Assembly: GCF_037975245.1 (NCBI RefSeq)
Contig: NC_092565.1
Location: 17,215,999-17,279,998, forward strand
From: Apostichopus japonicus
Taxonomy: Eukaryota > Echinodermata > Holothuroidea > Aspidochirotida > Stichopodidae
Reading direction: 5' to 3'
Length of the DNA stretch: 64,000 bases
Part shown: one piece after another, positions 30,405-57,020 of the stretch
How the letters are laid out: every line of letters begins with the position of its first letter
Position numbering within the stretch: position 1 is the stretch's first letter
Position numbers and translations under genes: made by a program
Notes under the pieces: model-generated
Databases searched by the model: none
Told to the model about the DNA's origin: nothing
The model's input: the letters and a program-made list of their open reading frames with translations, nothing else

Positions 30405-33400
30405 ATGTATGATGCAGAAAACTATAACAATGATGTAAGTTGGTTGTTACTTTGTTTCTTCTTTCAATATATACTTAACAATTCAGATATTCTTTTAGTT
30501 ACATTCTTCATTAAATTTAGACATAACTAATGACATTCCATTATTAAATGGCATCTGGTTCAGTCGTTGAACTTATAGGTTTTGTAATCCCATATGGTTT
30601 GGACTGTGCCATAAGTGCTTTTGAAGCTCTGCCAATGGTCATCATGGATGATCATATGAAGCTGCCTAAATATTTGATCAAACCTTCCTTAAGTGTTGAA
30701 CAAGTATCATACAGAATTACAAGGCATCCATGATTAATGCTATGCACTTTCTACAGCAATTGCTACCATATTATATTTCTGATGATAATGATACAAAAAA
30801 GGATTGTACCAGGTTGTGCAATGGAGTTTGCCAGAAACAGCAAACTGGAAGATTTTGATGGCCTATTGAGTTGTAAGATTGCAATCTGCATTGAATTCCC
30901 TGTAATGTGGTTCCACTTCTTGGCTAAGCAAAGTACGGTAATCTGCTGCGTTAGTATGTAAACTGAAATAGCAGCAAACACTGTGAAATGCTTGTCAATA
31001 TTAAGGAAATAAAGTGTTACATTAAATCTACAGGTGAGGCAAGTACAAGATTATTTGTATTGGTGGTGTACCAAATGCAATGACTTGTTTATTAATTAGG
31101 AGTAGCCACATGGCCATTCACATAGATCACTCGTGGTAGGAGTGAGGGTTACTCAGCTAAATATTTTAAATTGTAATTATATATGACCAGAGACTTTTTC
31201 AGAGTGAAACAAAGTATTAAACAGCCCATTGCAAAATACAGAGCTTTATATTATAAGGTAAACGGTGGTAACCCTTCTATCATTCAATATGTTCATATGA
31301 ACTAATTTGCTTAAATATGTATTTACTAACTCTGGAACTCTTTGTCTTCTATGCCTGTGCTATTTCTCTTGATAGGCTAGTGTGGAAGGTCTGTGGGCAG
31401 TACAGACTATGCATCATTGTGAAACCTACATGAATGTGAGTGTTTCATAAATTTTATGTGTTGATGTTTTTTTACTTTAATAGAAAAACTATCGTTCACT
31501 GTAGTTTTAAAGGGTAGTGAGGAACATAAAATATTCCTATAAAGCACCAAAATAAATAGTGTTACTACTGTATATGTCTGAGCTATATGTAATGAACCAA
31601 ATGTTCTACAGTCTTATTGTACTTTGACCAAGTTTTGGTAGGGATGTGTAGAAGTTCATACAATATGTAATTTTCACCAAACCTCTTTAATTTTCAATTA
31701 AAATTTGAATTTAATACTTGTTGGAGCTCCAAGGATAACTGTCTTCTTTTTATGTAGGGGTTGGGGAGGGGGGAGGGGGGAGGGTGTGGATGGGGAGATG
31801 ATGAGGCTACCCATTAAGACAAGATTTGTTGTAAGCTACTGTACTTGCTGTCTGCTGTGCATTCAGAAACCTGTTGATGTTCATACTCTGTTCTCTTGCA
31901 GCTCATATCTTCTGTTGATTCAAGAATCTTGAAACTAAGTGACAGGGATGACCTCATCCTGGAAGATTTCTGCAAAGACTTCCCAAATTTTGAAATAAGT
32001 CTTGTCAAAGAAGACCACTTGAAGAAACCATCTGCTAAAGTGGTAAGGAAGTTGAAAGACTGTAGCAGTTTTTGTGATGCACAGCTGATATCCCCATCAA
32101 TTCTCTCCCTTGCACCTCCCCCCTCCCCAATCCCTCTCTTTCATCACTGAGTTTGACATGTTGGTGAGCTTTCTTTATTGGTACTATATTTCAACTGTTT
32201 TTGTCATATTTCAACTTCATTCATGCACAGTCATGGATGTGGAATATAAAACATACAAATTTTGTTCTACTTGTGTAGCATACTGTTGTGGAAGTTTGTC
32301 TTTGAAATTGTATTTAAATGACGATTTCAAAGGCCACAGTTTTGTGATGTTCATCTGTGGTTACCTATTATAAAGGAGCTGCAACAATAAACTTTTCTCC
32401 TATCTAAGTAAAGTATATCAATACGAGAGCCAGTATTTTGATACTGAGGGAGGGGATGGAGAGGAGGGCAGGGAATGCCATGCTAGGATCAATTCCTAGA
32501 CCCTCTTTTCCGTTATGTTTATTTATGGATGCACGTTTTTACTGTTCCAGTATAAACTTCATTTTCTGGATTTGTCAGGGTCAGAGGTTGTTGGTTTAGA
32601 AAGAAAAGAACAACATCTCGAAAATCCATATTTCTTTACTATGATGTAAAACTTTGACTTTATAGTATTATAACAGAGAGCATTTTACTATTATCTGCCC
32701 CTTACCCCACAAGTTCACCTATACAATCTCTTAGTTGGTAGCACAGACAGGAAGTCCTCCAACATCACTATAAAATATTACTAACAGTTTCTGTTTACAA
32801 GCCATAAAGATAATAATATACTTCCCCATCTTCTAAGTCTTGATGGATCACTTACACTTTGACTTCCACAGCATAAAACTCTCTACAACAAAAACCCTAC
32901 ACCTGTCTGTGCATATATTATATCTCTACACAGATCTCTACCAAGAAAGTAACCTTCAATGTGATGTCATTGATGATGTCACAGTGTCAATTTCTCAGTA
33001 GCCCTGCCTCTGTTTCTTGGTAGAGTGTGTGTCAACAAGAGGACAGAGTAACTTCCAGTCCCATCCTCTGTCACCAACAAGTTTCAAGTTAATTAAAAAT
33101 CCAGTATAAATTACATGAAAGTACATATTTATAAATTGGATATGACAAACATTTAAAAGTTATTATGCTTAAAATAGCATGTTCAAGCACCGGTGTGACA
33201 GAATCTCTGCAAGGTATATTATTGTGTGAAATACAGTAACATGTTTCAAACAGACTTCTTTTCAGTGTGTGTGTCGTTTTGGTACTGTAACTGCACAAGA
33301 GTACTGTAACTTCAACCTTCCCAACGTAGTGCTACTATTATTATTATTATGATTAATTATTACATATTATCTTTTATTCTTTTTCAGAAATGGCGGACAT

Positions 33401-34504
33401 TTTGCAATCGTTATAAAGAAGAAATAAAGGACTTCAATCAAGGGTTACTCATCAGGTTAGACTGCAAGAAAGACTACTCAGAAGAGAATACTATTTTAGG
33501 TGAGCCTTGACCCTGGTTGTGCAATACAACAGAAGATATATTAATCTTGTCTGTAACGCATTGATAAAAATGAAAGAAAATTTCAATTTACATCATTCCT
33601 CTCTTACCCGTCTCCTATAAAATTCACTCCAATCTACCCCAGGTGATAAACTGGCAACATTCTGTCACTGTTCCCTCCTCCCCATGACCCTTGCCTATGT
33701 TACCTATGTTCAGATTATCTAAACATGATTTTCTAGCAAGGTTTTCCATCTGCTTGAAAGAATTTTGTTTAACAACGCACATCCATCTCATATGTAAAAG
33801 TAATGAAAATGTATTCAGAGAAAATGAAGAAAAGGGAAAAAAAATGAATCAATAATTTCAGGTCAAAAATTGGGCAATGCAATTGAAGCTTTTATATTAA
33901 AGGATAAGGAATCTTCCCAGCTTGCCTGCATAATGAACTTCTTTTTAAATTGATTAAACGTTAGGTTACACCGTTTATGGGGAATGAGAGCCTTGATAGA
34001 CCTGGTTACATTCAGAACAATGAAACAAGCACCTATAATGTGTCTATGTAATGGGGGCACTGGTAGGCTGGAGTGTGGTGCACTATTCACCTCAAAACAA
34101 TCCATTTTGTGTACATTTGAAATGGTCTTTCAAAGTGATAAAACCAAAAAGTGAAAGTCCAACCATCCTCGCTTGCTCCATGTCAAACACCTATTGAACT
34201 TGTATGTCTCCATTAATCAGATCACATGCACTCATTGGGCAAAGATGTCACTTATAATATAGTGTGTTCAGTAATTTAGTATATATTTAAATGTATCACA
34301 ATGACATAAAGCACAGTTGTTATATTAATTCTTTCTTTCTTTCTTTCTTCAGTCACCAAAATCCAGTTTCTTGCTATTGAGATTGCAAGAAACCGGGAAG
34401 GGCTGAATTTGCATTTTTGGAAGACGAAAAGGAAAGATGAGCTCCAAGAACAAACGACTACAGATGCAAACAACACAGACACTAGCAGTGACAAGAACAG
34501 CTAA
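30405..34504 (+). CDS. PBDC1: PBDC1 (polysaccharide biosynthesis domain-containing protein 1)
   Basis: Five spliced segments give 164 codons and a stop: 30405-30434, 31376-31435, 31902-32042, 33388-33499 and 34353-34504. Every junction has GT/AG and the phases agree. The product matches animal PBDC1 almost from end to end: NYNND, LISSVDSRILKL, KWRTFCNRYKEEIKDFN, LIRLDC, YSEENTIL and IQFLAIEIARNREGLN correspond to conserved blocks of the family. The C-terminal tail is polar and variable, as in relatives. Despite its name, the family is not shown to make polysaccharide; the yeast ortholog (YPL225W/Chp1) is described as a ribosome-associated chaperone for eEF1A, so a cytosolic role in translation-factor folding is inferred. 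The ATG at 30405 lies 17 nt inside an exon that is open upstream, so the true N-terminus may lie in an earlier exon; human PBDC1 has more residues before this point. Confidence 0.93.
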
Positions 34505-35512
34505 TAGTCTGCTAGTAACACCGGTTAGAGCAACAGTGAGAGCAAGTTCACTTCCATTAACAACACTACACCTCCCACCATGCAAGGCCTCAGCGCTGCA
34601 ATACCAATCTTTAAGATATCGCATTAGTATCATGTAAGAACATTTAAAATTGTTCCGTTTGAAGTCAAGGGTTGCCCATTTGCCCAGCCACACAACACAG
34701 ACCTCGGTGCAACCATGTCTGTAGTTGTTGCATTAATGTCAGCTAAATAAAAAAGAGTGTTCTTTTGAAACCAGGTAGGAACATGTTGCCCAGGCATTCA
34801 ACACCATTTGAGAGATGAAAGATGGTTTCTTTTGAAATCAGGTACGAACACTTTGGCTTACAACACTTTTGAGAGATGAAATATGGTTTCTTCCAACATC
34901 AAGTGCAAACACTTTGCCCCAGCCTTACAGCACTGTTAAAGCAGCCTAATTTACATGCAAGAATCTGTGGATTTAATTTTTATTAACTGGTAAGGATGAC
35001 ACATGTAATTAATGTAATGAATAAGGAATTAAGTTATTGTAAGTAGTCCCCCGTCTAGAGGGCAGAATCTTTAGGCCTTGATGAACTGTGATGAGAATTG
35101 GATTATGCTGATATGTCAAGTTTTGGGGTTGCCTGGGTAATCAAGTCATTCTGTACTTGAGTTTGCTTTTGCAATGGGAAGTTCAAAAGTTCTATGACAG
35201 TTATTGGTCCATAGTGATCAAGCATAAACCTTTTCTGCATTTGTGCTGTTATTTAGTACTTGACTGTAGTTGTGTTTTAACTTACAGCGTGGCACTTTGC
35301 AGTATTATGCATTACAATTATTAATAGTTTGATATCTGATCAGGAAAATCCATAATTCCCAGGTTTTCAATGTATCTATCCTATTGTATGTATTATCTAC
35401 AGTAATTTAAAGAAGCTTCCTGATCTGAAAATGTGGTGTTGATTTCCAAACATGGTTTAGTTTGGACAGATTTTAATGTGAAATCATGATCTGTTTCTGA
35501 ATTCTGACACCC

Positions 35513-35518
35513 AATAAA
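35513..35518 (+). terminator. Poly(A) signal candidate for PBDC1
   Basis: AATAAA lies about 1.0 kb after the PBDC1 stop codon and is followed by a T-rich stretch near 35560. No annotated exon intervenes, so 34505 to about 35540 is the likely 3' UTR. Confidence 0.55.
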
Positions 35519-35539
35519 ATCGTTTACAGCTTTGAAGGC

Positions 35540-37410
35540 AGTCTACTGTGAAGGTGTTTTTTTTTTTATTCTTGGTCATTAGCAAATCGGGGAGGACATT
35601 TTGTGCCACTAAGTCTTTCTACAATAACTTTCAGAGAACAACCTGTGGTAATCATTCCTCCGTAAATGGTCATTAGAAATATTCCCGTGACCCAGTGTCG
35701 TCTATTCAACTTGTATTGAATAAATTGAGTTTTGACATACATATATAGAGGTCATGACCCCTTGTCAGTAGTAAGTGTACACCAGTTTTTCTGCTTTGCT
35801 TTAAGCAAAAACATTACGATTCCGAACTTCAAAAGCTGAAGGCATTGTTTTTCTAAATAAGAAGACGTTGATAAATTTGATACTTAGTATTTTTTTTTTT
35901 TATGTCCGTAGCTTTTAGTCTGGAGATATAGTATCTGTAAAAGGCCATCTTGTCAAATTTCAATTTTACCAAAATGTCAACTGAACAGAAGAGAAATAGA
36001 AACACAAGAAGATAGAGAATGTTCTGTTATCTTTGTTATTTTCATTTACCATGCATTTGTTACAAGTTTATAATTGTTTTACATACTGTACAGGTCTGCT
36101 GATGGCAAAGCACACCAAATGAACACTGACACATCCTGACATTTGAACCACACCTCTTTGCACCCCCTCACCCACTACCATCATTAACTTTACATCCCAT
36201 ACAAGTAAATGTTTTCCATTAAACAAATGTAAACCAAGATTCAAATCAGACAGACAGTGTTTACACAGTTTAATGTATGCATAATATTAACCTTCCAGTG
36301 ATAACAGTGAATTAGTTGACCATCAAAGAGGTGATAGGTTTCTATAGGTTAAATGAGTCAATCCCTTCCTCCCCCCCCCCCCCCACAACTGGATGTTCTT
36401 CGCAGCTGATAAGAGTGATGGAGAATATATGCTCAAATCTTCAAACATCACAGTATTCACTTCTGGTGTGTAACAGCGTTCAGACAGAGTTCTCCATAAT
36501 TTCACTCTAAACTTTCTCAAACACTTTACATAAATTGCTTTCTTCCTATCACACTGAAGCTGGTCTTGGGTAATTACACAATGCTTTCATTTAATGGCCT
36601 ATGGAGATGGTAGTGTCTTGGTATAACATAGCATATAGTAATAGAAGTATGGGAAACTACTGATGTAGATTTGATTCATAGAATGCCAGTTGTTCTTGGT
36701 TAGTTAGATTATTAGTCTGCTCTGTAAAAATGGAGAGATGAATGAAATGACCACACAAAAATTCATGCCTAACCTAAGGAAGGGGTGCCATTAATGTACT
36801 GCAGGTTGGATAAATATGAAATCTGAACCAGAACTAGACAGTGTAGAGTAAAGTAACAGAAAAAAAAAATTGAAAACGGAAATATGTATAATAAATAGCC
36901 ACAAAGAGGACAAAATGAATTCTTAAACAATCAAGGATATAATATCTTTTTTTTTTAATCTTAGAACATATATCTTAAACTGAACCACAATTATTCAACC
37001 TTTTACTTTAATCTTGCTACTTCAAACTGAGCATAAAATAAATCAAAGTAGATCGTCAAAAATTACTGGATCTTCACCAAAGGCGACTTGAAAATATCCT
37101 GCTAGGAACAAAAATTTGGATCCTCTATTAAACTTGCTATATATTCAGCAACACAGACTGTTTGCAGAAGATAAGTAGCTTTTATAATATTGCTTTCTCT
37201 CTTTGAATGTAAAATAACTAGTTTTCTCTTTCTAGACACATTAAATGTGGACAATAATATAAATGTATATATATAGACATATTTCAGAATTATAACCAAA
37301 TTATCATTTGATTGATTCAGCAGAATTGATCTCTGATATGACAAGACAAAAAAAGGAAAGTTAACAATAAATCTTTCTTCAACAGGGATGTAATTTTCAC
37401 AAGATGGTTA
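35540..37410. other. Intergenic interval between PBDC1 and the convergent CARD-Death gene
   Basis: Contains short homopolymers (poly-C near 36370, poly-A and poly-T tracts) and no supported exon. CCTGCTAGGA near 37100 recalls the hairpin at 25563 but lacks the GAAAC-GTC part. Confidence 0.5.
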
Positions 37411-37837: not shown

Positions 37838-37843
37838 TTTATT
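37838..37843 (-). terminator. Poly(A) signal candidate for the CARD-Death gene
   Basis: TTTATT on the plus strand is AATAAA on the minus strand, about 660 bp after the stop codon of the CARD-Death gene. The interval 37844-38502 is then 3' UTR. Confidence 0.45.
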
Positions 37844-38502: not shown

Positions 38503-41500
38503 TCAATACTGATTTGCTAAGCTATTCCCAAAAGACATGTCTAAAGTTGAATGTCCCATTTTAAATATAATATGCCACAAAACCCCACTTGGATCACTAC
38601 TTCTAAGAGGCTGAGGACCACAATCTGAAGAAGTGGCCTGTTGTGATTCTGGTTCAACTCTGCCAACCACCTCCTGGGTTTCATTTGCATTATTATCATT
38701 CGTTTCCAGAACTTCTGCACTTCTATCTGCAGTTGTCTGGGGTATCCCCTTACTTTTATTCTTCTCCACAACCGTTTTGTTGGAGCAATCAATGTTGGGA
38801 CCATAATCGGTCTCTTTCCTGGGACCCGCTTCCTGTGATGTTAATGGATGTATTTTGAAATCTCCCTCTTCGTGACTTGGAGTGTTACTCACATGATTAT
38901 CTAAGTGTCCTACTTGGTTCAGAGTAGTTATATCTCCACCCCTTTTGATGTCCCTTACACTGCAAGAAGGAATATCATCAGGCTCTTCAGATTTTAATTT
39001 GTCTTTTGTTTGCATTTCAGATATTCCTGAAGTTACCTTCTCTTCTTCTCGACCTCTAACAAAATGTTCACCTTGTAACCCAACGCCGGGCGTTTCTACC
39101 ATTTTATCATCTCTTGAATTTTTGACCAAACTGTAAGCTTTCTCATCGTCTTCCACCGATATTGTTGTGGTCTGCTGTCTGTTGTGATCAGTTGCCTCAC
39201 TTTGACTAATATTTTCTGCATGTTTCTTTTCCCCTCTATCTCCTACATCTCTGATTTGATTTTCAGGGATCGCTGTCATGGTTGTGGCCTCGTTTCTTGG
39301 ATTCACTGTTGTAGACAGAGGTTGACTGGCTTCAAGCTTAATAGAATCAGATGAACTAGCCTCAGACATAAGGATATCCTCAGATTGACATAGAAAAACG
39401 TCAGTGCTAGCCAGGCTTTTTGGGGAACTACTGCTAATATCAACCTCCACCTTGGTTTTGGAATTTTCATGTCCACTGCCTAAGTCATTAGTATCTGAGA
39501 AACCGTTGTTGCTGTTTCCCAACTGTACACAGTTCTCCTTCTTGGTAGAGACATCACTTCCTTTCTCTGGAGTTGACTTTGGTGTAAGACGAGGAGGTGA
39601 TACATTGTCTGTACATGTTTCGGAGGACCGTATATTGCGCATCAGCTCTTTCACAGGCGATGATGGTGGTGTGACACGGCTGACTGGTAAGTTTCCTGAT
39701 GGAGGTCTGGGTCTTATATTTTCAGCAGCCTCAGCATTCAGTCTCTTTGGAGTTGCACTTGGTGTACGACCAGGTGATACATTCTCCGCACCTGTTTCTG
39801 AGGAGCTGGTAGTACCCTTCTGGCCTCGCACAGGCTGTGATTTTGGTGCAACAGGGCTTGATGGTGAACTAACAGACTGTGGTCCTTGTGGAGTATTCTC
39901 TGATTTATCAAATTTTACAGTGCCTGCATCATGTTCAGTGCGGTTTCTGTTAGCTTGCTGCGGTGAGGGACCAATGTTACCTGCCATCCCCAGCTTTGAT
40001 GCAGCAGTTGGTTCTCTCTGCTGCACCAGACTTGTGTTGTTCTGCTGTGGTTCTGAACCATATTTGCAGGCACTATGAGGTTTAGCAGTAGAATTGTTGA
40101 ATGATGTTTCCATACCAGGCATATTAACTGATGGATATGATGCTTTTGTCTCATAGTTCACCATTGACCTCTTTTGGTTTTTCTCTTCCTGTCTTGCGTG
40201 ACCCTTACCGGATGTTGCTCTTAGAGGTTCCTTCATCAGATCTCTGCTGGGATCTCTCATTCTGTTGTCAGGTGGTCTATGGGACTGTTGAGGTGGATGG
40301 CCCTGGACAGGCATCGGTTGCTTATTAACTGTCTTCATTCCATCACTGTTAAAATGTGTACCTGGGGATGTCCTTGTTGAACTATTCCACTTCTGCAATG
40401 CATCACTTTGCTGTGATTCCAAAAATGAAATTAAATCATAAAGTTATTCTACTGGGAGATCATACAATTGACATATCCAGAAGAGAAAGCATTGTAGCAA
40501 TGATGGCATTTTGTCAAAATGAAGAGGGGCAACTTCAACTTCAATTATTTACTGAAGAAAGTTAAGCTACCATCACAACATTATCAACAAAGCACAACAT
40601 AGATTACAGAAAGTACCCCTCCACCGCTAGATGCCAGGAGAAATCTCCCCTCCCTGCCCCCCTCCCCGCAGCCCCTCCCCCGCCCCCCACCTGCACACCA
40701 TGGTAAGTTAAAATGTTTCTTTACATTTAGCTAACTACTAAGAAATAGACACATTTCAAAAAAGGCTATCTGATCAAATTTTCTCTGTGCAGCAAACTCA
40801 CTCATATCCTTAGAAGGAGTAAGTTTAACCAATTTTTTTCCTATATGAAACAAAAATTGACATTGTATCAGTTATTGTTTGAACAGGGCATTTCTCTGTA
40901 CAACTCAAAACAATACTATAAGTGCTAACTGCATGTAAAGCTATCAACATTTCACAACACAGATGACGGGATGAACCCTTCTTGAATAGCTAACAGTAAA
41001 TCACATATTTCTTATCTGATTCCTGTGACGTCCTTTCAAGTCAATTTTAACCAACAAATACAATTTAAATATCCGACAGTCACTCACATCTTTTAGGTCA
41101 AGTTTCTGCCTTTTACCTCCTTTCAAATTGTTTTCATAGTGATGATGTTTCTCAATGCTCTGACAGAAATTTTCTTGTTCTTGTTGGGATGATAACTGCC
41201 GATTTGAGCCAGCACCATCTTCTTGTGTAATCTAAACATAAAACACATTTATTTAGCTCAATTGTTCATAATACTTTTCACATAGAGGAGTTCAACCTTG
41301 TCAACAATTTCTCAAGACCAATTGCTAAGTCGCTACGAAGTTTTGATATCAATAAAAAACCAAAGTACAGTAAACTCATTACAAATGCACTAATTCAATG
41401 TTTGCTGCTGAGCAACTTTACTGCTCTAACAATGATGAGAACTTCCTCACAATATTAAGACACCATTTGAAAGTCAATCCTATCCTAGACAGTAATATCC

Positions 41501-44500
41501 TCAGGACATGACAGGTGGGCGTGGTGGTCAAGGCAGTGGACTGGTGATCTAAGGATTACAGGTTCAAGCCTTGGCCAGATCATTGTGTTGTTTCCTTGGG
41601 CTAGGCACTTTATCTCCTTTGCCTCTCTTCATCCAGGTGTATAAATGGGGGGACGAGGTAACTTGTAAATATAGTTTCCTGCGCCGGTTTGTGGCTGCAC
41701 CTTATGGGAAGTCCCCCGGGGGACACGTAGTTGTTGTGCACTGTGGTGCCCCAGGAGAGATCGATTGAATTGCACACACTTTGGTGTGTAGGTGTGACAA
41801 GTTACCAATGACCAAGACTAAGTTGTAAAAGTGCTACAATCTCGATGTAGCAGCGCTATATAAGTGTCTTATATGTATGTATAATATGTAATGTGCCATG
41901 ACAGCACAGGTCAAAATGTTTATAACCAGAAAGTCAAATGGCTTTGTGATGCCTGGCCATATTTCATATGAGAATATGTAATTTAACAAAGAATACAATA
42001 TTTGACCCTGGCTATATTCACATGATCAGCAAAGTTTCACCTTTGCCATCTGTTGACCTCTGACCTTCACAGAAATGGTGAGTCTACACACCAAGTATGA
42101 ATTCATCCATCACAAACTTTTCTTGAGTTAAGAGTGTTATAAGGGTATAAGATACGCACATATCACACATGACATCATCATTGCATAGACTTATTTTGTC
42201 CTAGGGCTGGGGGTGGGAAAAAATAAGAAAGTAGTCTTTACTGACAGTACCAGAGCCAGCTATGTGGAAACACAAAACTAGCACATGGCCTTTAAAATGG
42301 GTTTCTCAAAATGAGAGAGCAAACATGAGATAGTTAAAAGGTTTTGGCACTTTACCGTCCTCCATCTTACCACCTCCTTAATTTTTGAGACCACGTCAAG
42401 CCTTTCAATACTACAAAGTCTCGAAATTAAGTTTCCAAGGTTGGCTTGGGAAGGGTTTTTCTGATACCACCTTTCAACCAAGCGAGCAGAACGATTGTCC
42501 AAAGTTGCAAGCCAATTCCTTTCTTCCCAAGTCATACCTGTTGAGAATAAACCAAGGATTAGAGTGTAACAAATATGTTTTGTTGTCATCTTCACCAAAC
42601 TCAGAACCATATTGTCATTGTGTAACAATTGTAAAACTAAGGACAAAATGGTCAGTAAAACTTCATTTGAAAAAGGCTCCTCCCACCCTCCCCCCTCCCT
42701 CTCTCCACAGACATAAATATTCCATATAATTTACTAAATTATTTTCCATTACTACACAGGTGAAATTGCTGCTTACACAGTTCAGAAAATAGAAAATAGA
42801 ATCCAGTTTGGAATTAATACAGCTAATGGATTCTCTCCTAGTTTAAGTGAAATCATGATTGTTCTCAGGATTTTGCCCATTGGTCCCTATTCATTTATTG
42901 GGTATGTGAGGGTCTTAATACTACGATTAACTGTGCTTTAAAGAAAAATAAAATGCCTTTTATTCCAGCTTTATAATCCTATGAGGTAGCCTAGAGGCTT
43001 AAATGTAGGTTAGCAACTTGATTGCATTTCTAAGTACATCTTTCATCCCTTACAAGGTTGTACAGTATGAAGCAGGTAGCACAATGTTTCATGTGACATC
43101 AAAGAAGTAGTTCTACTTGTCCAAACAAAGATGCTACTGTATTTAACATATGTCACTTTTTTGCCCTTTTACTGACATTATGAAGCAGTTTCTAGAACTT
43201 GCATTCATGGGCTAGCTGTGTCACTGGTGTGTTTTGGGTGACACACATGTAACATGCGTGCAGTGTACAGTGCGGAAGGGATGGACGGTGTCCTATGTAC
43301 ACCAGGGGAACTCCCTAGAACAGTGTGTGACCTAGCCTTTGAAACATTTGTACAGCTACCGTCAGAGAGTCCACAAGGGGCTATAAACTGGCAATACTTC
43401 TGACAAGTTAATGGTCACAAGTAATTCACCTACAAGTTTTATATGCACCGTAAGTCTAACGTAAAAGTAACGTCTACCCTGAAAGCATAGCAGACTTGAG
43501 AAGTCAGTTACATTTGTGGAGAATAAACACAACAAATTACATTACAATATACATAGAGATATCAACAGCCAAGTCAGGTCCTGGGAACGACCGTCTCATC
43601 ATGCCCATATTTAGTGACTTTCAGTTTACGTTACATATATTATGTATATGAAATATCATTATTCTATATCTTATATCTTGCCTGCCACACCTGTATTGTC
43701 CCCAGCTCTCTCATGTACACCCCCGAAACCCCTCATCTGGCCTGCTCTCTGAAAGATACTATTACGAAGATGCAACCAGTTGCATCTTGCAGTTACAAAA
43801 TACAAATCAGCATACCAAAACAATCAGCTAAGTCTTCCCAGCTGTGGCTGATACCAACATCTTGATCTAACAATCTGAGGGCAGCTCTCACACCAGCTGG
43901 CAAATCTGACACTGGAGTGTCTTCCGAGATCGACCTCCGATTAGAGGGTGGTGGTTGGTTCTCTGAGATCCTGTGTGTGGTCTGACACACAGTTGACCGG
44001 ACAACAGGAGTAGGAGAAAGTAAGCTACCTGTGCCAAACAGAGGGCATAAAACACACAAAATTATCACAGAAAGGTACTGAAAATGTAATGACATCCATC
44101 AGCAAGAAATAATGAAGATTGTTTACGAGGAAAATGATATCGTTTGGTATCCTACAGTAAGCGACTCAACCGAATGCAGAAAATCCAGGTTTTGATAAAC
44201 AATCTCTAGAAACCTCTTAATTGCTCAATTATCCCCTGGGAGGAGACAAAAATATTGCTCTGTTCTCTTATTTATTAAGCTTCCTTTTAAATAAACACTA
44301 TACACTTCCAAGAAACATGTGCCTTAGGTACCAAATTCACATGTGGGAACCTGTGCTTAAATCCCTGAAAATTCAAGGGAGGTATCTGTGCAAAAGTGTG
44401 ATTATGACACACATTTGCCAGTTTTCAACCTTTGTGACACATTACTATGTATAGGTTTTACAATGTGAAAGGGGTGGAAACTCCCAAAACACAGGTTGAC

Positions 44501-47298
44501 AACAAAATCTATGACAACCAGTGGCAAGAAATCCAATTTTGTGATAATGTGTGAACTAGCAGAGTTTTCTGTGACACAGAATTCTCCATGTTGTCTATAT
44601 TGAATTATTTATGAATAAGATTCTCAGGTACAAAAACATATTTTCAAATTTTGTTACATGTGTAAAACCACTGGTTTCCATAAATATTCACATGTTTTAG
44701 GAAGACATGGAAAAAAATTATTTTTTTATCTATGGAATTGGGCTCAATAAACACAGGTTTTTGAAGTGTATTCAAGTGTCTTTCCTTTCTGTGTTACCTG
44801 ACAGCGTAATTGTTAGGGTTTGGTGGCAGTCAATGTTAATTTGACACTCAAATAATGCAACATTCCCGAGGGAAAAGGGGAAGTGATATTTTTGTTGTTA
44901 ATTTCTGGGTAGTTATATTTTTACCTTCTGGATAGTAGTTCTCAGACATGGGTTCATCAATATTAGAGTTTTCTGGAGGTGTGTAACAGATGAACCAATC
45001 CCTAGTAGCTTATCTAGAGATAACATTCAAACACTAGACTTGTGAGTTGTTTACTCAACTTTGTCCCAGTCTCACAACCAATGGCAGTGCAATATTGTTC
45101 CTTACTTGAATATTACTCCTACTGTACAGTACTTCATGATTACAGTAGTACACTGAATGAGAGAATAGAAATCATATAATTACGATGAGAGAATATGAAT
45201 CATATTTTTCCTGGGATATAATCCCATTCTATCCAAGTTAAAGGGACATCATCCCATTCTATCCAAGTTAAAGGGACATCATCCCATTCTATCCAAGTTA
45301 AAGGGACATCATCCCATTCTATCCAAGTTAAAGGGACATCATCCCATTCTATCCAAGTTAAAGGGACATTATCCCATTCTATCCAAGTGACAGGGAAATC
45401 ATCCCATTCTATCCAAGTGACAGGGACATCATCCCATTCTATCCAAGTTAAAGGGACATCATCCCATTCTATCCAAGTTACAGGGACATCATCCCATTCT
45501 ATCCAAGTTACAGGGACATCAACCCATTCTTTCCAAGTTACAGGGACATTATTGTACTTAAAAAACCAACCTTCTTTATCAGACTTCATCATCTCGAGAA
45601 TTTCAACAGGACCTATTTCCTCTAAGCCTTCAATAAGTTGGTCATACCATCCTGTCTTCCCTACTAAGCAGGAGCAAAGCTCTCTGTTGGCAGTTGTATC
45701 ACCTTCGTTGCGAGTGTACCTTCTTATTCTTTGCTGCAAACAGGGAAGCAAAATTGCCATGGTAACCATTATGTTATTCTACTAGCAGAAATCTTCAGAA
45801 ACAGTTTACTTTGTCTTTGAAATAGCATCGACCACGTTTTAGGTTATAGATCAGGCCCAAATGTCAAAAGACAAGAATTTGCATAAAGTTACATGTTTTA
45901 TTGCAGGATCTTCCTTCAGAGGCTAACTGAAACTTAAACAGACTAAGAATATATCTATTAACACTCAGATGTACAGACAACCTTTCAAACTATGTGCTTT
46001 ACCACCTGTAATCTTAGCATTGTTTTGAGCCATTCATACAATGGCAATAAAATCATACATAGTAAGGGTGAATTAGGGACATCTTTGGCATATGCTACAG
46101 TTAAATGCTACCATGAGTTATTATATTCTAAACAAGAAGAACTGCCAGCGGTTATGACTTTTTAAGTTTTTACATAATGCGCAAAGTGCCACAGTCAAAG
46201 CCACCTCAGAAGGACTTTGTAATTGTCAAGTATACATAAAAAAAATTGCATAAAATTTTGACTTAGCAACCATCATTTCTTTTGCATTTAGCATAATAGA
46301 GTATAAAACCTCCTTTACAGCATCATTTGAACCTCAAATTAGCCTATATTTCTTTTCATTGGGGCGAGCAGCGAACGTTTTCATGCCACGGGAAAGAATA
46401 AATTATCACCTACTATTCAATTTATTGATGTTACACACAAAAAAATGCATATTTCTCAGAAAATTTTGGGTGACAAAAGCCTTCTAAGTGCCACCATTTT
46501 ACATGTAGGCATCACCAGGATTAAAAAAAAATTTAATAGGGGAGGGGGACGCCCCCTCCCCTTATACCCTTCCCCAGGACGGCGATTCGTGGCATGGACC
46601 AGCATTTGCCTACTCAAGAGTTGGGAGCTATGACTGTGTGATATATTAATTCTGTAGATTTGACTTTTCAGTCGTTTAAAGGCCAGGTAGTTATAAATGT
46701 TGTCATCTAAGCACATCACATCAAAGTATTGTTTATACTGTGTCATTGTCTAAGAATTGTTTATACTGTGAAAGCTTCAGCATCCCTTGGGCAGTGTAAT
46801 TATAATTAATTCCAAGGGGAAAAGAATGGGCCTGCCAGTCACCCTAGATGAAGTGATCATGGTCGTAAGTAAGAGGAAAAGAGGAGTGAGATAGGGACAT
46901 AAAGGCACAGAGCAGTTTTGACGTAACTGTGAGGAACGTATCAAAGGTACAAATCAAAGGTTAATGGCTTTTGTATTCAAAGCCATCAAACCAAATATTC
47001 CTAGAGGAAGGCCAATTGTCGCAAAAGTTTGAGTAAATGCTGTACAGTAAGCTACTCACGATAACATCACTCTTACATACTCTGAAGCTCCCAGAGTGTA
47101 CTTGTAGGCAACACTAGTTTACCAAACTATAAATTCAGTAATAGAAAAAGCTGCACAGGTAAATACTCGTACCATATCTGATTGTAAGCTGATGCAAGGT
47201 AGCTTATCCAATAGGTCACCTGGGGACACCTTATTATTGAAATCAAAGGCAATCTCTCTTAACCTTTTTCTTCGTCTCTTATCCAAGATGTTGTCCAT
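38503..47298 (-). CDS. CARD-Death domain adaptor with long disordered tail (RLR/MAVS-type CARD)
   Basis: Six coding exons on the minus strand: 47298-47173, 45733-45571, 44028-43816, 42537-42371, 41231-41088 and 40410-38503. Phases agree at all junctions (0, 1, 1, 0, 0), giving 906 residues. Residues about 18-95 form a CARD resembling those of MAVS and the RIG-I/MDA5 group: SPGDLLDKLPC, then NEGDTTANRELCSCLV, then GWYDQLIEGLEEIGPVEILEMM. Residues about 138-222 form a Death domain, with SWEDLADCFGMTWEERNWL, WYQKNPSQANLGNLISRL and DVVSKIKE. The remaining ~680 residues are Ser/Pro/Thr/Gln-rich and look disordered. I see no transmembrane tail like that of MAVS and no clear pLxIS motif (nearest is EVDIS). 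Exon 4 has a second donor 15 nt further on (42356). A 5' non-coding exon is expected, since an acceptor opens just upstream of the ATG. The likely role is a cytosolic immune or cell-death signalling adaptor; RAIDD-like and MAVS-like relationships are both open. Confidence 0.85.
41515..41896 (+). mobile_element. Full-length tRNA-derived SINE (382 bp)
   Basis: The head is class II tRNA-like (Leu/Ser type), with an A-box region (GTGGTGGTCAAGGCAGTGG) and a B-box GGTTCAAGCC about 40 bp later. The body contains a GC-rich core near 41700 and an ending AGCGCTATATAAGTGTC followed by a TATG-rich tail. CATGACAG flanks it at 41507-41514 and 41897-41904, a perfect 8-bp target-site duplication. It sits in the intron between coding exons 4 and 5 of the CARD-Death gene, in the opposite orientation. 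Confidence 0.88.
42538..43815. other. Intron 3 of the CARD-Death gene
   Basis: Bounded by the coding exons ending at 43816 and beginning at 42537. The GTATGC donor and CTCAACAG acceptor fit. No further element recognised. Confidence 0.6.
44029..45220. other. Intron 2 of the CARD-Death gene, distal part
   Basis: No exon recognised. The intron begins at the donor GTTGGT just below 45571 and runs first through the 30-bp minisatellite. Confidence 0.6.
45221..45550. repeat. 30-bp minisatellite, 11 copies
   Basis: The unit ATCCCATTCTATCCAAGTTA plus a ten-base AAGGGACATC block repeats at 45221, 45251 and so on to 45521, with few substitutions. Each unit is ten codons, so both strands stay open. 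On the minus strand it is in frame with CARD exon 2 through the unspliced donor and reads as a ten-residue repeat containing WIEWDDVPLT. It lies about 20 bp inside intron 2. Confidence 0.95.
45734..47172. other. Intron 1 of the CARD-Death gene
   Basis: Runs from the GTACGA donor to the TTTGCAG acceptor. Near 46530-46580 it holds a G/C-rich patch (GGGGAGGGGG, CCCCCTCCCC) like those in the hAT-like elements of this window, probably a fragment of one. Confidence 0.55.
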
Positions 47299-47310: not shown

Positions 47311-50300
47311 CTGTTAAGGACCTGTAGGGAGATGCAGTATATTTTAATTAAAGTTAAGTCTTCCTGAAGTTAGAATAGGGTACCGTAGGTGTGGAAAAGT
47401 GTATGATTTGTGTGCTCCATGCAAATTTACTTACCTGTATAATAAAGACAAATTCTGGGTTAGCCATTTGTGGCACCCAAACGTTACAGGGGACCATCAT
47501 AAACAGTATAGATTCAATAGTTTCTCCTTATGTAAAAGGCAATGACTGCAATTTATAACCATTCCTTGACATTCGACAGGTGGGGGTACGGGGGAAACTC
47601 AAATCAGTAGGCCAAAAATGACGTGTGCGATACTTAATACCAAAGAAAGTGTCTAGGAAACTTTCTTGGTCATATCTTTATGAATGCTTGTAACATTGTA
47701 AAAGGGCTTGTAGCCTAAAAAGTAGTGAGAAAGTTTGAAGTAGTACAGCAGGCCTCAGAATGCAGGGGCTTTTTTGGGTACAAATGCTAGTGGATTTCCA
47801 TGTTTGCCATGTGAAGAAAAATGGCACTTGCATTTTGCTGTTAGTAGATCCATATTTGCTTTGTATTAATTCATATAAAATCCCAGTTAGAATTTGATTT
47901 TAGCACGTAAATCTTTTTACACACTGGCATTTCTAGCAAGCGACTAAAATTGATAATTAAACTTTTTTTATAGAATAAAGCTACAATTATCAATGTGACT
48001 TTGTGACATTCTTTCCAAGCCTTGTCAATGAATGTCATTCCATACACAACCAACCTATTTGAATTTTTCTCCTCTTTTTGGCATAGATCTCAGATACATA
48101 TTGATCTAATGCTGCAAATATGTGGATAATGAATAAAAAAAAAAACTCATCATCATAACTGAGCTTTAGAGACCTATAGTGCGTACCACATAAGTATATA
48201 AGATGCACTTGAATGTTTACTGTGTGCTACCCAAGTAATAACAAAGGGAGACAATGTGATACAATGCCAGGAATCAAAGAAGTTGAGATACAGCATGTAC
48301 TGTATGAAAGTAAAAACAAATGGTTAGTCAAACATTGCTGTAAATTAGCAAATCTTTGTGCGATTCATCACTAGCATTAAATGTTTGTATGTAAGCTTAC
48401 TTATATCAGCTAGACTGTTATTTATTGTGTCCAATATACAGTATATCAGAAGAAATATATATCTCCTTTCTAGTCAGATTTCTAGACCTTTCTTATACTG
48501 TATAATTTGTCACATTTTGCTTTAAATGAAATAAAATAATTCAAGGTCATCCCCAATTAAGTGAAGGTCTTGTCTATTGGTACGTTTAAGTGCCAATAAC
48601 AACCGTTATTGTTACGTTAGCATACCAATAAGCATCGATATTCGCACGAACATGCTCGTGCTTATAGACAGTGACTTTGCACATGAAGGCGTACTAATAA
48701 GGATTGTTATTTGCAGGAATGTGTATGTGGGTATAGGTAGGCATGTAATGATTAGAAAAGCACTGCCAATAAACATTTATATTCGCACGAACGTGTTCGT
48801 ACTGAGTAGGAGGGGAAGGTAAACCATGGCCACAACACCAGTGTTGGGTGTGCACGGTCGATTTGCCTTCCCTCACCCCCCCCCTGGCCCCCCTCAAGAT
48901 TTTGGTCTACGAAAATTTGCTGATTCTCAAAAAATGGTTATCTTTTTCAAAATCAATAGCCAAATCTGTAAAATATGAGAGAAATAAGAGATGTGATCAA
49001 TTCTGGAAAAATTCAGAAAAATAATTAAAGATTTTGCTGGAATATTTCAGAAGAGATTTGTTGCAAACGGAATATGATGAATTTAATTCATCTACAGTAG
49101 TCGCTTGTTTGCTGCTACAACCGTTTTGGAATCCTTTATTACAAAAATAGAACAAGAGCATCAATGACGCAGTATCTCAATACGGGAAGTTCTAATTTCG
49201 ATTCCTAGTTTCTTATCTTTGCTGTCTCTACAATTATCTATATCAATATATATAATATTTTTGGTCTTGTATATACGTAGTTTGACGTCAATGACAACAG
49301 TCAAATAAGAAGAGGCGAACAACTCGACCATATTCTTGATGCCTGCCTTGAGAAAGCTAGGCCTATCGACCTACTGTAGGTTACTGTAGACTGTAGTGGT
49401 GACTACCATCAAAACTGTGTACACTTCCAATTATCAAAACAACCCACATTTTTCCATCTCAATAATTTTGACATGAAGATTTCTTGGATTTATGACTTGG
49501 AAAAAATAATGTGTACACATATGTAGAATATAAGTTTTAAATTGAAAGTGATGGATGGCCTCCTCCTCCCCTAATACTCACCCCAGTTCCTCTCCATTTT
49601 AGTATTTTCTTTTAATTCTTTGTATATTTGATGTCAAACATCACAGGTTCAAAAGAAAGTAGTTTCTTATAACCTTATTATATCCTTATAAATAAAACAT
49701 AACCTTATCCAATTTTTATAGTCTTATAAAAGTTGTGATGCTATGGCCGGCTCCTCTTTTATACATACTCCAGTGAAAATAAAATGTGATAGATTATAAT
49801 TTTTGTTTTTAATTCTTTTTGGGGGGGGGGGTTAAAGAAATATACCAAACAAGCTGTTAATTCATAATGATGCTTCATTCTAGAAATGCACAATATACAT
49901 GCACTCTATTCCAAATGAATAGTTGTTGTATTATCCCATTAACATTATATTAAATTTATGGAGTCACAGTTAATATATAAGTTGGAAACTTAACTTAAAA
50001 ATTAAAACACACTGTAAGGCAATCAAACAAACTTACTTTACCCTGGCCCAAAACTGCCTGAACAGCACCAGTACATGTACAATGCTAATGTGGCTATTAC
50101 TAAATGAAGGCCTAATATAGAATGCATTAGGCCTAGCCTAAACTTGTAGCCTTCAGCAGCACAACAAAGTGTATACGTTGTAATGTTACCGACCAGGTAA
50201 TATGTTGTTCAATGTCCAAATAAAGACAGAAATACTTCTATAAAGAATTACAGAAATGTATTGAGAGGTTAACACTCGGAAGGCCAGATCGCAAGAAGCC

Positions 50301-50671
50301 GATCCTTGAACATACAGGCTATGCACCAAACAGTAATGATGTTGGTGCGCGACATATAAAGTAGCTCTTAAACGTATAGCTTAATAATGTCACATACGTA
50401 ATTATACAAAATACCTGATGGGCAATCAAACAAACTTATCATGACTCTTGCTCTGAAAAACTACCTGAACAACAGAACAATCCTTAAATTGATATTACTA
50501 AAACCATGGAGCTATAAACAGACGAAGTCCTAATATAAATTAAATGCACAACAATGTGTATATGGAATTAGTGTGCAATACACGACCAGTACCAACATCT
50601 CACAACAGTACAGTAAATTGGTCGTGAGGGTGACCATTTTCGTATATATCTAACATGTAGCTGCCATGAGG
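47311..50671. other. 5' flank or first intron of the CARD-Death gene
   Basis: An acceptor (CTTAACAG) opens coding exon 1 at 47310, so this stretch likely contains a 5' non-coding exon and an intron. I could not place that exon. Apart from the repeat pair near 48.7 kb and homopolymer tracts, nothing else is recognised. Confidence 0.45.
48625..48803. repeat. Direct repeat pair around TATTCGCACGAAC
   Basis: About 39 bp starting CCAATAA is repeated at 48625-48664 and 48766-48803, each including TATTCGCACGAACNTG and a nearby reverse-complement word (CTCGTG, TTCGTAC). The same word appears inverted at 51233-51282. It may be the end of a small foldback element. Confidence 0.5.
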
Positions 50672-50758
50672 CATAGCCAATCTGCTACAAACCAGACTTG
50701 GAGGCGGGGCTTGAGTCATAGCCAATCTGCTACACAAGACTTGGAGGCGGGGCTTAAT
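50672..50758 (-). promoter_or_regulatory. Duplicated CCAAT-box/GC-box segment, candidate promoter
   Basis: Two tandem ~44-bp copies each carry AGCCAATCTG (an NF-Y-type CCAAT box) and GGAGGCGGGGCTT (an Sp1/KLF-type GC box), separated by about 14 bp. Copy two lacks three bases between the boxes. It lies about 3.4 kb upstream of coding exon 1 of the minus-strand CARD-Death gene. A promoter role for that gene is inferred; a plus-strand or bidirectional promoter, or a chance feature of a repeat, is possible. Confidence 0.4.
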
Positions 50759-52117
50759 CATCAAAAACAATGAAACAAACAAGTTTTGGAGCGTGTGCAA
50801 GAAGGCCTTATTTCAACTGTTTTTCAGAGTGATTTGGCCAAATTTGGACATAAATCGGTGAAAAAGTCATAGAATGAGATACAATTCTGGAATAAAAAAT
50901 AGTAACTTTTGTTGGCCTATATGATATGTTGGCCTATATGAAATTCCAGAGAAGGAGAACTTTGTATAAAGACGCTGAAAATTTTTAAGAGAAGAGAGAG
51001 TCCCACTTACTGTTACAATATCTCTATACATGTAATGTATTGAGATAAAAAGTATCTGCAGATATACTTTGAACATAACCCTGGATCCCCATAGTTATCA
51101 AATTCCTGTTCCATTGTTATGCACTGCTGTGTTATTGTCCATCGATGTCCTGTTAATCCCTCCCGACCAACACATATCGGGACAGTTCATTGTTTACATC
51201 AACCACGGGCGCTGATTGGTCAAGTTACATGAGTGCGAATAGTCAACGTTATTCGCACAATTACGTTCGTGCGAATAGCCACAAAGTTAAGTGAATTCCA
51301 GAATCCAGATATATATAAATGAGAAGCACAACCATCTAACATTTGGCCTAGCCAAAGCATTGAATAGTCAGTGCTATATTGTCTAAAATCCAAATAGCAG
51401 GCCAGACAGGCTAAAAGTTAGTGATAGGCCTATATAAATACTGATTTCATTGACTCAATCACTGAATAAATACTGTGTGGTGTGTGATGTTCACAAACCA
51501 ATGATTTTATGTTAGGCTTGCTACAACAAAGTGCATAGGTTACGTTTTTTCATTATACAGGGCTATCTGCAACTTAGGCTTGGCTTGACTTAGTGTAACT
51601 TCTGTAAGGGCCTAACATTACCTGTTTCGAGAAATACATAACCTGTTACCTTTGTGTGTATTTTGATTCTTTCAAGGTTACTGATGTTCAAAGGATGTAC
51701 TTGAAATATCTGTTGAGCTACTGTCGCATATCCCTAAATTTACTTCTGATACTGGTAAGGAACTAGGGCCTAACAGCGGCATAACGCTACTTTATTTTGC
51801 GTTACACAATTTTCCTATAATTGTTCGCACATTGCACAATTACAATTTACAGTCCGTTTGACACAAGTTTACTGTTAGTACTAATCAGGCCTACTGTAGG
51901 CTAGGCCAAAACTTATTGTAGTTACTAGCCTACCGAAGCGTTAGGAATACAATTATCATATGTTACGAGAACCAACTAATTAAGACTGGTTTCTATGTCT
52001 TGCTCTCCTTTCTAATTCGAAACATTGATTTTTGCAAACATGTCTTTACTTTAAAATTCTTTCAAAGATTACTGCGTTCTGGAGCTATGGTGCAACCTGG
52101 TTCACACCAGGTTTAAT
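50759..52117. other. Intergenic interval
   Basis: Apart from the short palindrome at 51233-51282, no gene or element is recognised. Confidence 0.5.
51233..51282. repeat. Palindromic GTGCGAATA repeat, MITE end fragment
   Basis: GTGCGAAT (51233-51240) and ATTCGCAC (51251-51258) form an inverted repeat, followed by GTTCGTGCGAATAGCCAC (51265-51282). The last bases, GAATAGCCAC, match the end of the MITE at 28949-28978, which suggests a related family. Confidence 0.5.
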
Positions 52118-52496
52118 GTTACGGCTGAGGTTAGTTCCAAGGTGTTTCGACAACACAGCTAGTTGACCTCTAACGTCACCTCCGTTTCAGATTCGCTGAT
52201 CGTATTGTGGTGTTTTGGGATGTGTTGGGAATACTGTACTAACTGTTTGCCTATGTAAGCGAAACCCTCAGATCTAGGCCCTAGGTAAAGATGGTACACG
52301 AAACACTCAGTGCGCTGTACCAGGTGTCTGAATCACTGTCTGTGATGTGGTGTCGAAACACCCTGCATGGAATTCCAAGTGTTTGAATCACTGTGTCCTG
52401 GTAAGTGAAATCCTCAGAATGTGATACCAAGTTTTGTTGTCGAAACACCCTGAAACTAGCCTCAACTCGCTTGACTTTTAACCTCTAGCCCGTAAC
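52118..52496. mobile_element. Foldback/MITE-like element, about 380 bp
   Basis: Left end GTTACGGCTGAGGTTAG and GGTGTTTCGACAACA are mirrored at the right by TGTTGTCGAAACACC and CTAGCCCGTAAC, with internal differences. The interior repeats GAATCACTGT and AAACACCCTG several times. No coding capacity; no clear target duplication. Confidence 0.55.
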
Positions 52497-52577
52497 AGTT
52501 GACACAATTTCCTCATAATAAACCAAACGTCTAATTTACTTCCTAAAATTTGTACATTTTGTAGCACAAACACACAG

Positions 52578-52647
52578 CAGGGGGGTTTGACATTTGAGAG
52601 CGGGGGCGTTCGGCCCCTAGCTGCAACCTCCTCTGGTTACGCCACTG
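52578..52647. mobile_element. hAT-like terminal fragment
   Basis: CAGGGGGG at the left and GGTTACGCCACTG at the right look like CAGNGGCGTAACC-type hAT ends, only 70 bp apart. No target duplication was seen, so this may be a deleted copy. Confidence 0.35.
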
Positions 52648-52814
52648 GTGGAAGCATAGTATCAATGCAAGCCGCCCCATCCCCCTTGCGCAACTCACTG
52701 GTATCCATTATGAAAAGAAATGGCTATAAATTCTTTTTAATTCCTCGCTTTATCAAGGTAATATTACCGGTAGTAATATTTGTCTTACCAAGTGCTATTA
52801 TAGACCTAATAGTT

Positions 52815-52910
52815 TCGGTCTCGCAGACCTCGGTCTCGAAGATCTTCGGTGTGGCGGACCTTTTTAATTTCGGTCTCGCGGACCTTCGGTCTCGCAGACC
52901 TCGCAGATCC
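52815..52910. repeat. Cluster of short palindromic CGGTCTCG(C/A)AGACC units
   Basis: At least four units of the kind CGGTCTCGCAGACCT or variants with GAAGATC or GCGGACC are spaced irregularly. Each can form a small hairpin (GGTCT...AGACC). Confidence 0.7.
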
Positions 52911-53721
52911 TCAAAAAGAACAGTAAATTCAGGAAAAATTTTACAAATACTTCTAGCATCGGTAAAGACAATCTTCAGCTTATCCCTGTAAGTGTAACAA
53001 GGTGTAGCCTACCTTAGCATGCCTCCTGATATTGTTAGAAATGACTTACCTTCCTTTCAAAACACCTATAAGCACCTCCACTAGAAATATAATCCTTAAA
53101 AAATTTATGCCTGCCCCCATCGACCCCCAATTTCGTTTTAAACATAGCTGTTCAACAGAGTAATTCACCAACCATTAGGCTAACCAGGGGCGGATCCAGG
53201 ATTTTGAGAAAGGGGGGCCGACATCCCGATGGTAGCACTTTAGTGATCTGCGTCCTGGGGGAGGGGTCTAGGGGAGGGGCCCCCTCCCCCTTGGAAATTT
53301 TTGGTTAATTGTGAGTGCTTGGATGCAAAATGGTGAAACATTTCGCCAAAAACTAGAAAAACCAGAAACGTTGCAGACACGCTTTTTTGTGCACATATTT
53401 TTTCTCGATAGACACATATTTAAGAACGCTCAACAGTGCATGTACAATGGATACACTATTATTGCGTCGATTCGTTTTTTCTTTTGCGAGAAAATTATGA
53501 CGCCAGATTCACCCCAAGAAAAAACATAAAACAAGATATGTTCAATGAGATAATTATGATATACTTATTAATGAAAGGGGGGTGTAGGCGGTTTTACACT
53601 ATCTACGCAACGTAGTCGCCAAGAACCTGAAGTATTTTTAAGGGAGGGCCCGATAATAAGCGGAAACGGATCACCGACCGAAAAAACATCGGAATTTGTG
53701 GACTATTTCTTGCTTCCTATT

Positions 53722-54743
53722 CAGGGGCGTAGCGAAGGGTTTTTTGTTGGGGGGGGGGTGTGGAGAATTTGATTTGCCGACGGATCTGGAAGAAGTGACT
53801 GAAATGGGGGAGGGGTATAAGGGGAGGGGGTCTACCCCTCCCCTTTGGAAAATTTTTAGTTTTGAAACGTCCTTAGATGCAATCTGGTGCATATTTTAAG
53901 TCAAATTTGATTTGCCGACGGATCTGGAAGTGGTGACTGGAATGGGGGAGGGGTCTAAGGGTAGGGGGTCTACCCCTCCCCTTTGTAAATTTTTTAGTTT
54001 TGAAACGTCCTTAGATGCAATCTGGTGCATATTTTAAGTCAAATTTGGCACCGTAGAATTTCCATTTCGATATTATTTTTGTGGCAGTCGGCAGAAGAAG
54101 AATTAATTGGGACCAATTATCGAACTGTGTTTTCTCTTTCTCCGATCGTTGAAATAGTGAAACTTCATGATGAAAATGTTCAGAAAACTTTCCGGTAATG
54201 AGGAAAAACAACATTCATTGATATACAAGCGAGAAACGTTAAAAATTGTGTACAATTCGTGAGCCGTGTCCTTAAGTTTTCAACGGAGAACGAATGACAT
54301 CTGCGATGACGTCATTCTGAACAGAGGATAATAACAACACGTTGTCACACGATAGCACGACTCATGGGCTACGGCCTATACGGAAGCCTTTAATTCCATT
54401 TCTTTCACTGAGTTGCCGGCGATTCTGGCACTCGTCTAGCTGAGCCTGGCTACAGTAGCTATACTGACGGCCGTGACATTATCAGTTATTTGCCGAGAGG
54501 TTTTTAACTTGCAGGCGTCGGGTGATTGGATTGGTGAATGAGTTTATCAGATGAAGAACTGGAAAATCAAAATAACCGATAAAGGAGCTCTCGTTCTCCT
54601 TTTCTCTATTCAGCTTTCCTTCTTCTTCCCCTTCCGCTCTCTTCACCTTTTCTCCTTTTGCCGACAGACCCAAAATTTGCCGACAGCGACCAAATTATTA
54701 TATACACCCCTCACACCCCCCCCCCCCCGCTCGCTACGCCCTG
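53722..54743. mobile_element. hAT-like element nested in the composite region
   Basis: The inverted ends are CAGGGGCGTAGCGAAGG and CCGCTCGCTACGCCCTG. Inside the left half a 138-bp segment beginning TTTGCCGACGGATCTGG is tandemly duplicated (from 53773 and from 53911). It contains GGGGAGGGG blocks and GATGCAATCTGG, both typical of this window's G-rich element family. No 8-bp target duplication remains. Confidence 0.6.
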
Positions 54744-55209
54744 CACGCGGAATTATCCAAACTGTTTCCAAAAGAACCGATGCTAGCCTATACAAAAGGG
54801 CCCAAAATCTCAAAGGTTTACTTGTTAACTCAAGGTTTCATACTAACGAAGAATCAGCTGACTCTCAAGGTTCACACGAAGCTCTTTTAGATGCTCTTAT
54901 AGCTGCACTATGAGTCCATAAAAACTCGTGCACAGAAAATAGATGCATTTTGAGAACGAGACGCCCAGGCCGAATATAAAATATTCAAAGGCTACTACTG
55001 ATGAAGCTCCTTCTATAAAGTTTGAGAGCAGAAACCGGTCTAGTTGGTCATAAGAACCTACACTAGTCTCTCCTACTATTAACAGTACACTCAATTCACC
55101 TAAAAGGTGCAATTATGTTTCACCACGAGGAGCATGCTATAAGTTCATGTTCCTTGGGCCCTCCCTTAAAAATACTTCAGGTTCTTGGCGACTATACGTT
55201 GCCTTAGAT

Positions 55210-56413: not shown

Positions 56414-56930
56414 CCTTAGATAGTGTAAAACCGCCTACACCCCGTTTCATTCAGATAATTATGATATACTTGCTAACTGTGCATTGATTTTCCCTGACAG
56501 TAATAGTCAGCACTATAGTACTGAGCCGTATCTAATTAATACGTAATGTCGCGTAGGCCTGGTAATTGCCTTATAGTTTCAAATTTGGAATAAAAACGAT
56601 CGCGTTTCAGGGAAGAGCAGCTGGATATATATTAGGCTTTTCTTTCACCAAGTTATGCCTTTTAGGAATTTGAAGTACTCCCACATAAAAAACGCAACTG
56701 ATTTCTAAAAGGGGGGGGCGGGGCCGGGTCGCCCCCCCCTGGATCCTCCCCTGCTAACGGTTATGCCGTTACAGTACCTTAGGCTATGTCTTGGGGGCTA
56801 AGCTGCGTCAGCTACAACCTGCAACAAAGCCTGGCTCATATAATTTTCTAAAACGTTCAAAGTTCAAGTCAAGAGAATACACTAGTCCAGGCTTCAAACC
56901 CATGCTGCCCAGTTGCCGTCATCTGCAGGT

Positions 56931-57020
56931 CAGGGACGTCTTAACGCATGGGCCCACTGGGCCCTGGCCCAGGGCCCCGCGATGTCAGGGGCCCCGCAAT
57001 CACAGTAACCCCGTGTCTTA
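56931..57020. mobile_element. Possible hAT-like terminus (CAGGGACGTCTTAACGC...)
   Basis: CAGGGACGTCTTAACGCATG followed by GGGCCC-rich sequence resembles a widespread G/C-rich terminal repeat. No matching right end was found. Confidence 0.3.

Follow-up and report, generated by a model that had tools for sequence, protein, structure and literature searches.

A predicted CARD-Death gene of the MAVS class, with a long disordered tail and no detected membrane anchor, in the sea cucumber Apostichopus japonicus

In the 64,000-nucleotide stretch of Apostichopus japonicus DNA that was analysed (the window), one gene on the minus strand, from 47298 to 38503, encodes a predicted protein of 906 residues, in which a CARD is followed by a Death domain and a very long tail. 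The gene contains six exons with GT-AG borders and compatible phases (Table 1), and it is confirmed as a predicted gene model. An earlier note on this DNA had given exactly these coordinates and had treated the exons as one gene; both points hold, since the exons join in phase and all six, together with their splice sites, are kept in a tandem copy. Scored with a simple matrix, the donors of exons 1–3 are modest (5.8, 5.9 and 4.6), and those of exons 4 and 5 are good (8.1 and 8.1). One extra exon candidate at ∼44.92–45.01 kb would place a peptide between exons 2 and 3; it was rejected owing to a TAG in that frame of the tandem copy, as aligned by eye. The left third of the window (1–23907) is a 164-bp satellite, present in ∼146 copies at 96% match. 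From the gene to the window end (47400–64000), no Pfam match was found at E 0.01 on either strand.

Table 1. Predicted exons of the CARD-Death-tail gene and its candidate poly(A) signal, in window coordinates
Feature	Position	Strand	Content	Basis
Exon 1	47173..47298	-	Codons 1–42, first half of CARD; ends phase 0	Splice model; also in tandem copy
Exon 2	45571..45733	-	Second half of CARD; ends in codon 97, phase 1	Splice model, Pfam, tandem copy
Exon 3	43816..44028	-	Linker and start of Death domain	Splice model, Pfam, tandem copy
Exon 4	42371..42537	-	Remainder of Death domain (Death = residues 156–222)	Splice model, Pfam, tandem copy
Exon 5	41088..41231	-	Disordered tail begins	Splice model, tandem copy
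Exon 6	38503..40410	-	Ser/Pro/Thr/Glu-rich disordered tail, 635 codons and stop; no TM in frame	
AATAAA, candidate poly(A) signal	37838..37843	-	660 nt past the stop	Counterpart at matching place of tandem copy

Exactly two Pfam families were matched in the 906-residue protein up to E 1. CARD_2 (PF16739) covers residues 6–93 (E 3e-11; 43.6 bits, cut-off 28.2), and Death (PF00531) covers residues 156–222 (E 6.5e-8; 33.0 bits, cut-off 22.6). Up to the same value, neither the classical CARD family (PF00619) nor the helicase and RIG-I_C-RD families gave any match in this protein. Compared to solved structures, the Death domain has weak matches, to ankyrin-1 (0.0097) and MyD88 (0.1). The tail (residues 224–906, ∼680 residues) is disordered by the charge-hydropathy measure and is rich in Ser, Pro, Thr, Glu, Lys and Asn. 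The CARD, the Death domain and the very long disordered tail, which the earlier note had proposed, were thus all recovered. Neither a pLxIS nor a TRAF6 PxExx motif occurs in the tail of either tandem copy. One PxQxS is located at residue 310 (309 in the tandem copy); a second motif, PxQx[TSD], is present at 855 in the tandem copy only.

The tandem copy was identified by searching the window's own assembly (671,581,487 bases in 35 contigs; the window contig is labelled C5). This second full copy runs from 17300669 to 17290399 of C5; it is ∼37 kb away from the first copy and has the same orientation. The two copies differ by 129 nucleotide changes and four indels (12, 3, 3 and 9, all multiples of three), and the frame stays open; when 129 substitutions, half of them transitions, were placed at random, 6 of 2000 trials were stop-free. 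Between the whole copies, the Nei-Gojobori dS and dN are 0.045 and 0.050, respectively (dN/dS ∼1.1). For the CARD, dN/dS is 0.61, and the Death domain has 1 synonymous and 13 nonsynonymous changes. Because these counts are small, we read them as a frame that is kept and a protein that is changing, not as proof of positive selection. The introns and flanks of the copies are 90–95% alike, as similar as the exons. A stretch of ∼1.5 kb (34075–35611) is unmatched in the equivalent region next to the tandem copy.

The CARD was compared to solved structures using a profile of six sequences (alignment A3), which comprise the window CARD, its tandem copy and four relatives from a cluster on contig C1. 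A3 leaves out the row of L005, which is near-identical to L004; L015 (20212247) is in neither the alignment nor the tree described below, and L003, of which only the second half was used, is in the tree alone. All six A3 members match CARD_2, the best at 1.1e-14. Up to E 10, the profile matched 31 distinct PDB sequences, and the top 23 are all CARDs of RIG-I, MDA5 or MAVS, with best values of 2.7e-10, 8.6e-8 and 4.6e-4, respectively. The remaining eight are one CRISPR subunit, three Fas, three isoleucine-tRNA ligases and CDT1, all at 0.31 or worse; the 31 include no CARD of another class. Taken alone, the window CARD gives weak PDB matches (RIG-I 0.13, MDA5 0.3, MAVS 1.6), so its assignment rests on the profile and on Pfam. 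By these two measures, the window CARD is of the RLR/MAVS class, in agreement with the earlier reading. Since the best structural matches are RLR CARDs and not MAVS CARDs, there is room for its descent from an RLR CARD. Genome-wide, CARD_2 has 22 matches up to E 10, and 13 of them are over the cut-off. One of the matches, at C22:23149717, was considered as a MAVS and rejected; read by eye, it is a caspase-type CARD.

The exon structure of the CARD was compared within the same genome. Like the window gene, the CARD genes of the C1 cluster have a phase 0 intron in the same CARD column (after codon 42), at an identity of 32–34%, and their second CARD exon also ends in phase 1 (codon 97). The first donor was read in L004 and L015; for the acceptor and the second donor, L003 was read as well. 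In the RLR genes, CARD1 carries a phase 1 intron located ∼6 residues upstream by eye (donors read at three loci, acceptors at five), and CARD2 is uninterrupted at the five loci read, lying in a single open frame. When a tree was built from 16 rows, one branch (78/88; 76% of bootstrap trees) separated the C5 and C1 CARDs from RLR CARD1 and CARD2; the tree is of modest support, with 7 of its 13 inner branches drawn open as weak and the long branches flagged.

The C1 cluster (20.04–20.31 Mb; loci L003–L005, L015–L018 and L025–L029) contains nine CARD_2 matches; five are over the cut-off and three have an internal stop. At a distance of ∼1.7 to 4 kb beyond several of these CARDs lie long disordered tail exons, a feature also found in the window gene. 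They are of two types. Type one (∼360 residues) occurs in four copies; the one in L004 carries a pLxIS-like PLEIS and, with a maximum of 0.45, lacks a hydrophobic stretch. Type two occurs at five loci, all of which were measured for hydrophobicity. In L025 (2.22), L003 (1.75) and L029 (1.75), the peak is within some 30 residues of the C-terminus; in L028 the peak (1.47) is followed by ∼25 more residues, and L026 (1.0) has no anchor. Different from the window gene, the cluster therefore has an anchor-like C-terminal segment in three of the six tails measured (the five of type two and L004), and its Death domain is encoded by a single exon with better PF00531 scores. Phase 0 is the starting phase of window exon 6 and of five of the six tail exons; the sixth, in L026, begins in phase 1. 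The score between the window and L004 tails is 82 (shuffled mean 60, sd 10) and was reached by 6 of 200 shuffles, which leaves homology unproven; the score between the window and L025 tails was reached by 80 of 200 shuffles, a chance level. On the minus strand of L003 (C1:20303001-20313000), a P2RX7_C match (31.6 bits, cut-off 23.5) lies downstream of the MAVS-class CARD gene.

At two C1 loci, C1:20238207 and 20273260, a Death exon is located between the CARD and the tail on the same strand. At the former (L005/L025), which has the best anchor, the phases of CARD, Death and tail are not directly compatible, so further small exons would be needed; none was found there. At the latter (L026), the CARD end, the Death exon and the tail fit in phase, but a simple repeat cuts the CARD exon short and the tail is anchor-free. 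Owing to these defects, a CARD-Death-tail-TM gene on C1 is plausible at most.

Vertebrate MAVS (IPS-1/VISA/Cardif) has a C-terminal TM and no Death domain. Human MAVS has an exon border near residue 39; a text search of the literature for this border returned nothing of use. Another border of the MAVS CARD is at residue 97 (PMC5536018). The window gene has this border, the CARD class and a long tail in common with vertebrate MAVS; different from it, the window protein contains a Death domain, and no TM, pLxIS or TRAF6 motif was detected in it. RIG-I and MDA5 have the same class of CARD, whereas the window protein lacks their helicase and RIG-I_C-RD matches. Oyster CgMAVS (PMC5557890) and scallop CfMAVS (PMC9879056) are both CARD-Death-TM proteins. 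Like the window gene, they have an N-terminal CARD followed by Death, in animals with RLRs. Compared by description, they end in a TM, whereas none was found in the window protein, whose tail is long and disordered. Because such proteins are already published, the suggestion of the earlier note that the locus represents an undescribed signalling system is not supported. Oyster MAVS that lacks its TM does not bind RIG-I CARDs (PMC5557890). In scallop, CfMAVS binds CCD1 of a TBK1/IKKe-like kinase by means of its DEATH domain; for the kinase domain, its CARD is sufficient (PMC9879056). No description of an echinoderm MAVS was found in the open-access literature, covered as titles, opening abstracts and passages of PMC8998645, PMC6723221, PMC9334734, PMC13043383 and PMC9505182. 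One figure of PMC9334734 gives the number of MAVS hits in each species, among them Strongylocentrotus purpuratus; therefore, a sea urchin MAVS hit may already be on record.

Judged from sequence, the window gene is likely to encode an adaptor of the MAVS family that follows the invertebrate CARD-Death plan and in which no tail anchor was detected. What is unusual in it is the missing anchor, beside a second MAVS-like family on C1. The earlier note had also set the protein apart from MAVS, which ends in a membrane anchor, and we take the predicted protein as anchor-free: no TM segment is present in frame in the tail, where the top 19-residue values are 0.65 (window) and 1.31 (tandem copy). An unlikely alternative is that the model lacks a final exon, or a splice within exon 6, and that the real protein is a complete CARD-Death-tail-TM form like oyster MAVS. 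In both copies, those top values are at the very C-terminus, and strong donor-like sites are present within exon 6, among them AAG|GTAACT at 39037 (8.5) and AAA|GTAAGG at 38754 (8.3), compared to 4.6–8.1 for the five used donors. The exon 6 frame and stop are kept in the tandem copy with indels of multiples of three only, but this has little power, since the similarity of introns and flanks means that the copy says little on the use of these sites. In the +1 frame, a stretch at ∼38636–38545 is TM-like in the window copy; it was rejected as an anchor because a stop shortens it in the tandem copy. TM-like ORFs at 34.3–34.7 kb were likewise rejected as an anchor exon, as they lie within the stretch 34075–35611 that is unmatched beside the tandem copy. 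The ORF at 32405–32539 (minus strand), ∼6 kb downstream, stops soon after a hydrophobic stretch (1.97; 1.86 in the copy) and is kept with its stop in both; a splice link from the gene to this possible tail-anchor exon was looked for and not found. The AATAAA 660 nt past the stop also argues against a missed exon.

The order of CARD and Death is identical to that of RAIDD (CRADD), and the gene could be read as a RAIDD-type caspase-2 adaptor with an added tail. This is extremely unlikely, and the earlier note had already set the protein apart from RAIDD: RAIDD is small, has a classical CARD (PF00619) and has no long tail, whereas the window protein matches CARD_2 and its profile finds RLR/MAVS CARDs first. 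Moreover, the likely RAIDD homologue is elsewhere, at L006 (C20:13979001-13989000), where a classical CARD (49 bits) is followed by Death (40.1 bits) on the same strand. The two copies could also be a decaying duplicate or pseudogene pair, or one of them an unmerged haplotype. The overall dN/dS, the excess of nonsynonymous changes in the Death domain, and flanks and introns as similar as the exons are all consistent with that; however, both copies are open with all splice sites intact, an outcome rare in the random trials, and they lie on one contig and one strand, ∼37 kb apart. We regard decay or a haplotype as very unlikely.

Matches to possible partners of such an adaptor are present in the same genome. 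RIG-I_C-RD has seven matches in the genome, all over the cut-off and all on C20, where CARD_2 matches read as RLR CARDs are also located. IRF has six exon matches and TBK1_CCD1 has one. Parts of the RLR pathway thus exist in this animal. Death-domain exons number 204 candidates genome-wide, of which 150 were scored; many are on C12, perhaps as an NLR-type expansion.

From these parts, we infer how the adaptor may work. Upon RNA sensing, the RLRs encoded on C20 would expose their CARDs, and these would nucleate polymerisation of the adaptor through its own CARD. The Death domains, clustered in this way, would then recruit a downstream partner, which could be TBK1/IKKe CCD1 (the scallop case) or some other protein with a Death domain; the tail may serve as a flexible scaffold. 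Without an anchor, the protein would be expected to work in the cytosol, where it could form a second branch or, being soluble, modulate or compete with the anchored C1 proteins. Its role is probably that of a cytosolic branch or a modulator of RLR signalling. The failure of oyster MAVS without TM to bind RIG-I CARDs (PMC5557890) favours a modulator, and the kept Death domain favours signalling; given that failure and the absence of an in-frame TM, MAVS-like activation is not to be presumed. Rather doubtfully, we suggest a MAVS system of two tiers, in which anchored MAVS-like proteins of the C1 cluster are accompanied by a cytosolic, anchor-free CARD-Death-tail relative (the window gene and its tandem copy). 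The Death domain of this relative, in which the copies would be diversifying fast, might couple RLR CARD filaments to a Death-domain signalosome, or the relative might compete with the anchored forms.

Together with the mollusc cases, a CARD-Death gene of the MAVS class in a deuterostome would suggest an ancient origin of the CARD-Death form and a loss of Death in vertebrate MAVS. Genes are now named for testing the RLR-to-MAVS link outside vertebrates, and the window gene would offer a natural anchor-free form for comparison with anchored ones.

Intron 2 of the window gene contains a 30-bp minisatellite of ∼11 copies (45213–45549). With a period divisible by three, it leaves the frame of exon 2 open on the minus strand, where it reads as a decapeptide repeat; exon 2 and the minisatellite form an ORF of 192 residues in the window and 232 in the tandem copy. 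This open frame is probably due to chance; if intron 2 were retained, aromatic repeats would be appended to the CARD.
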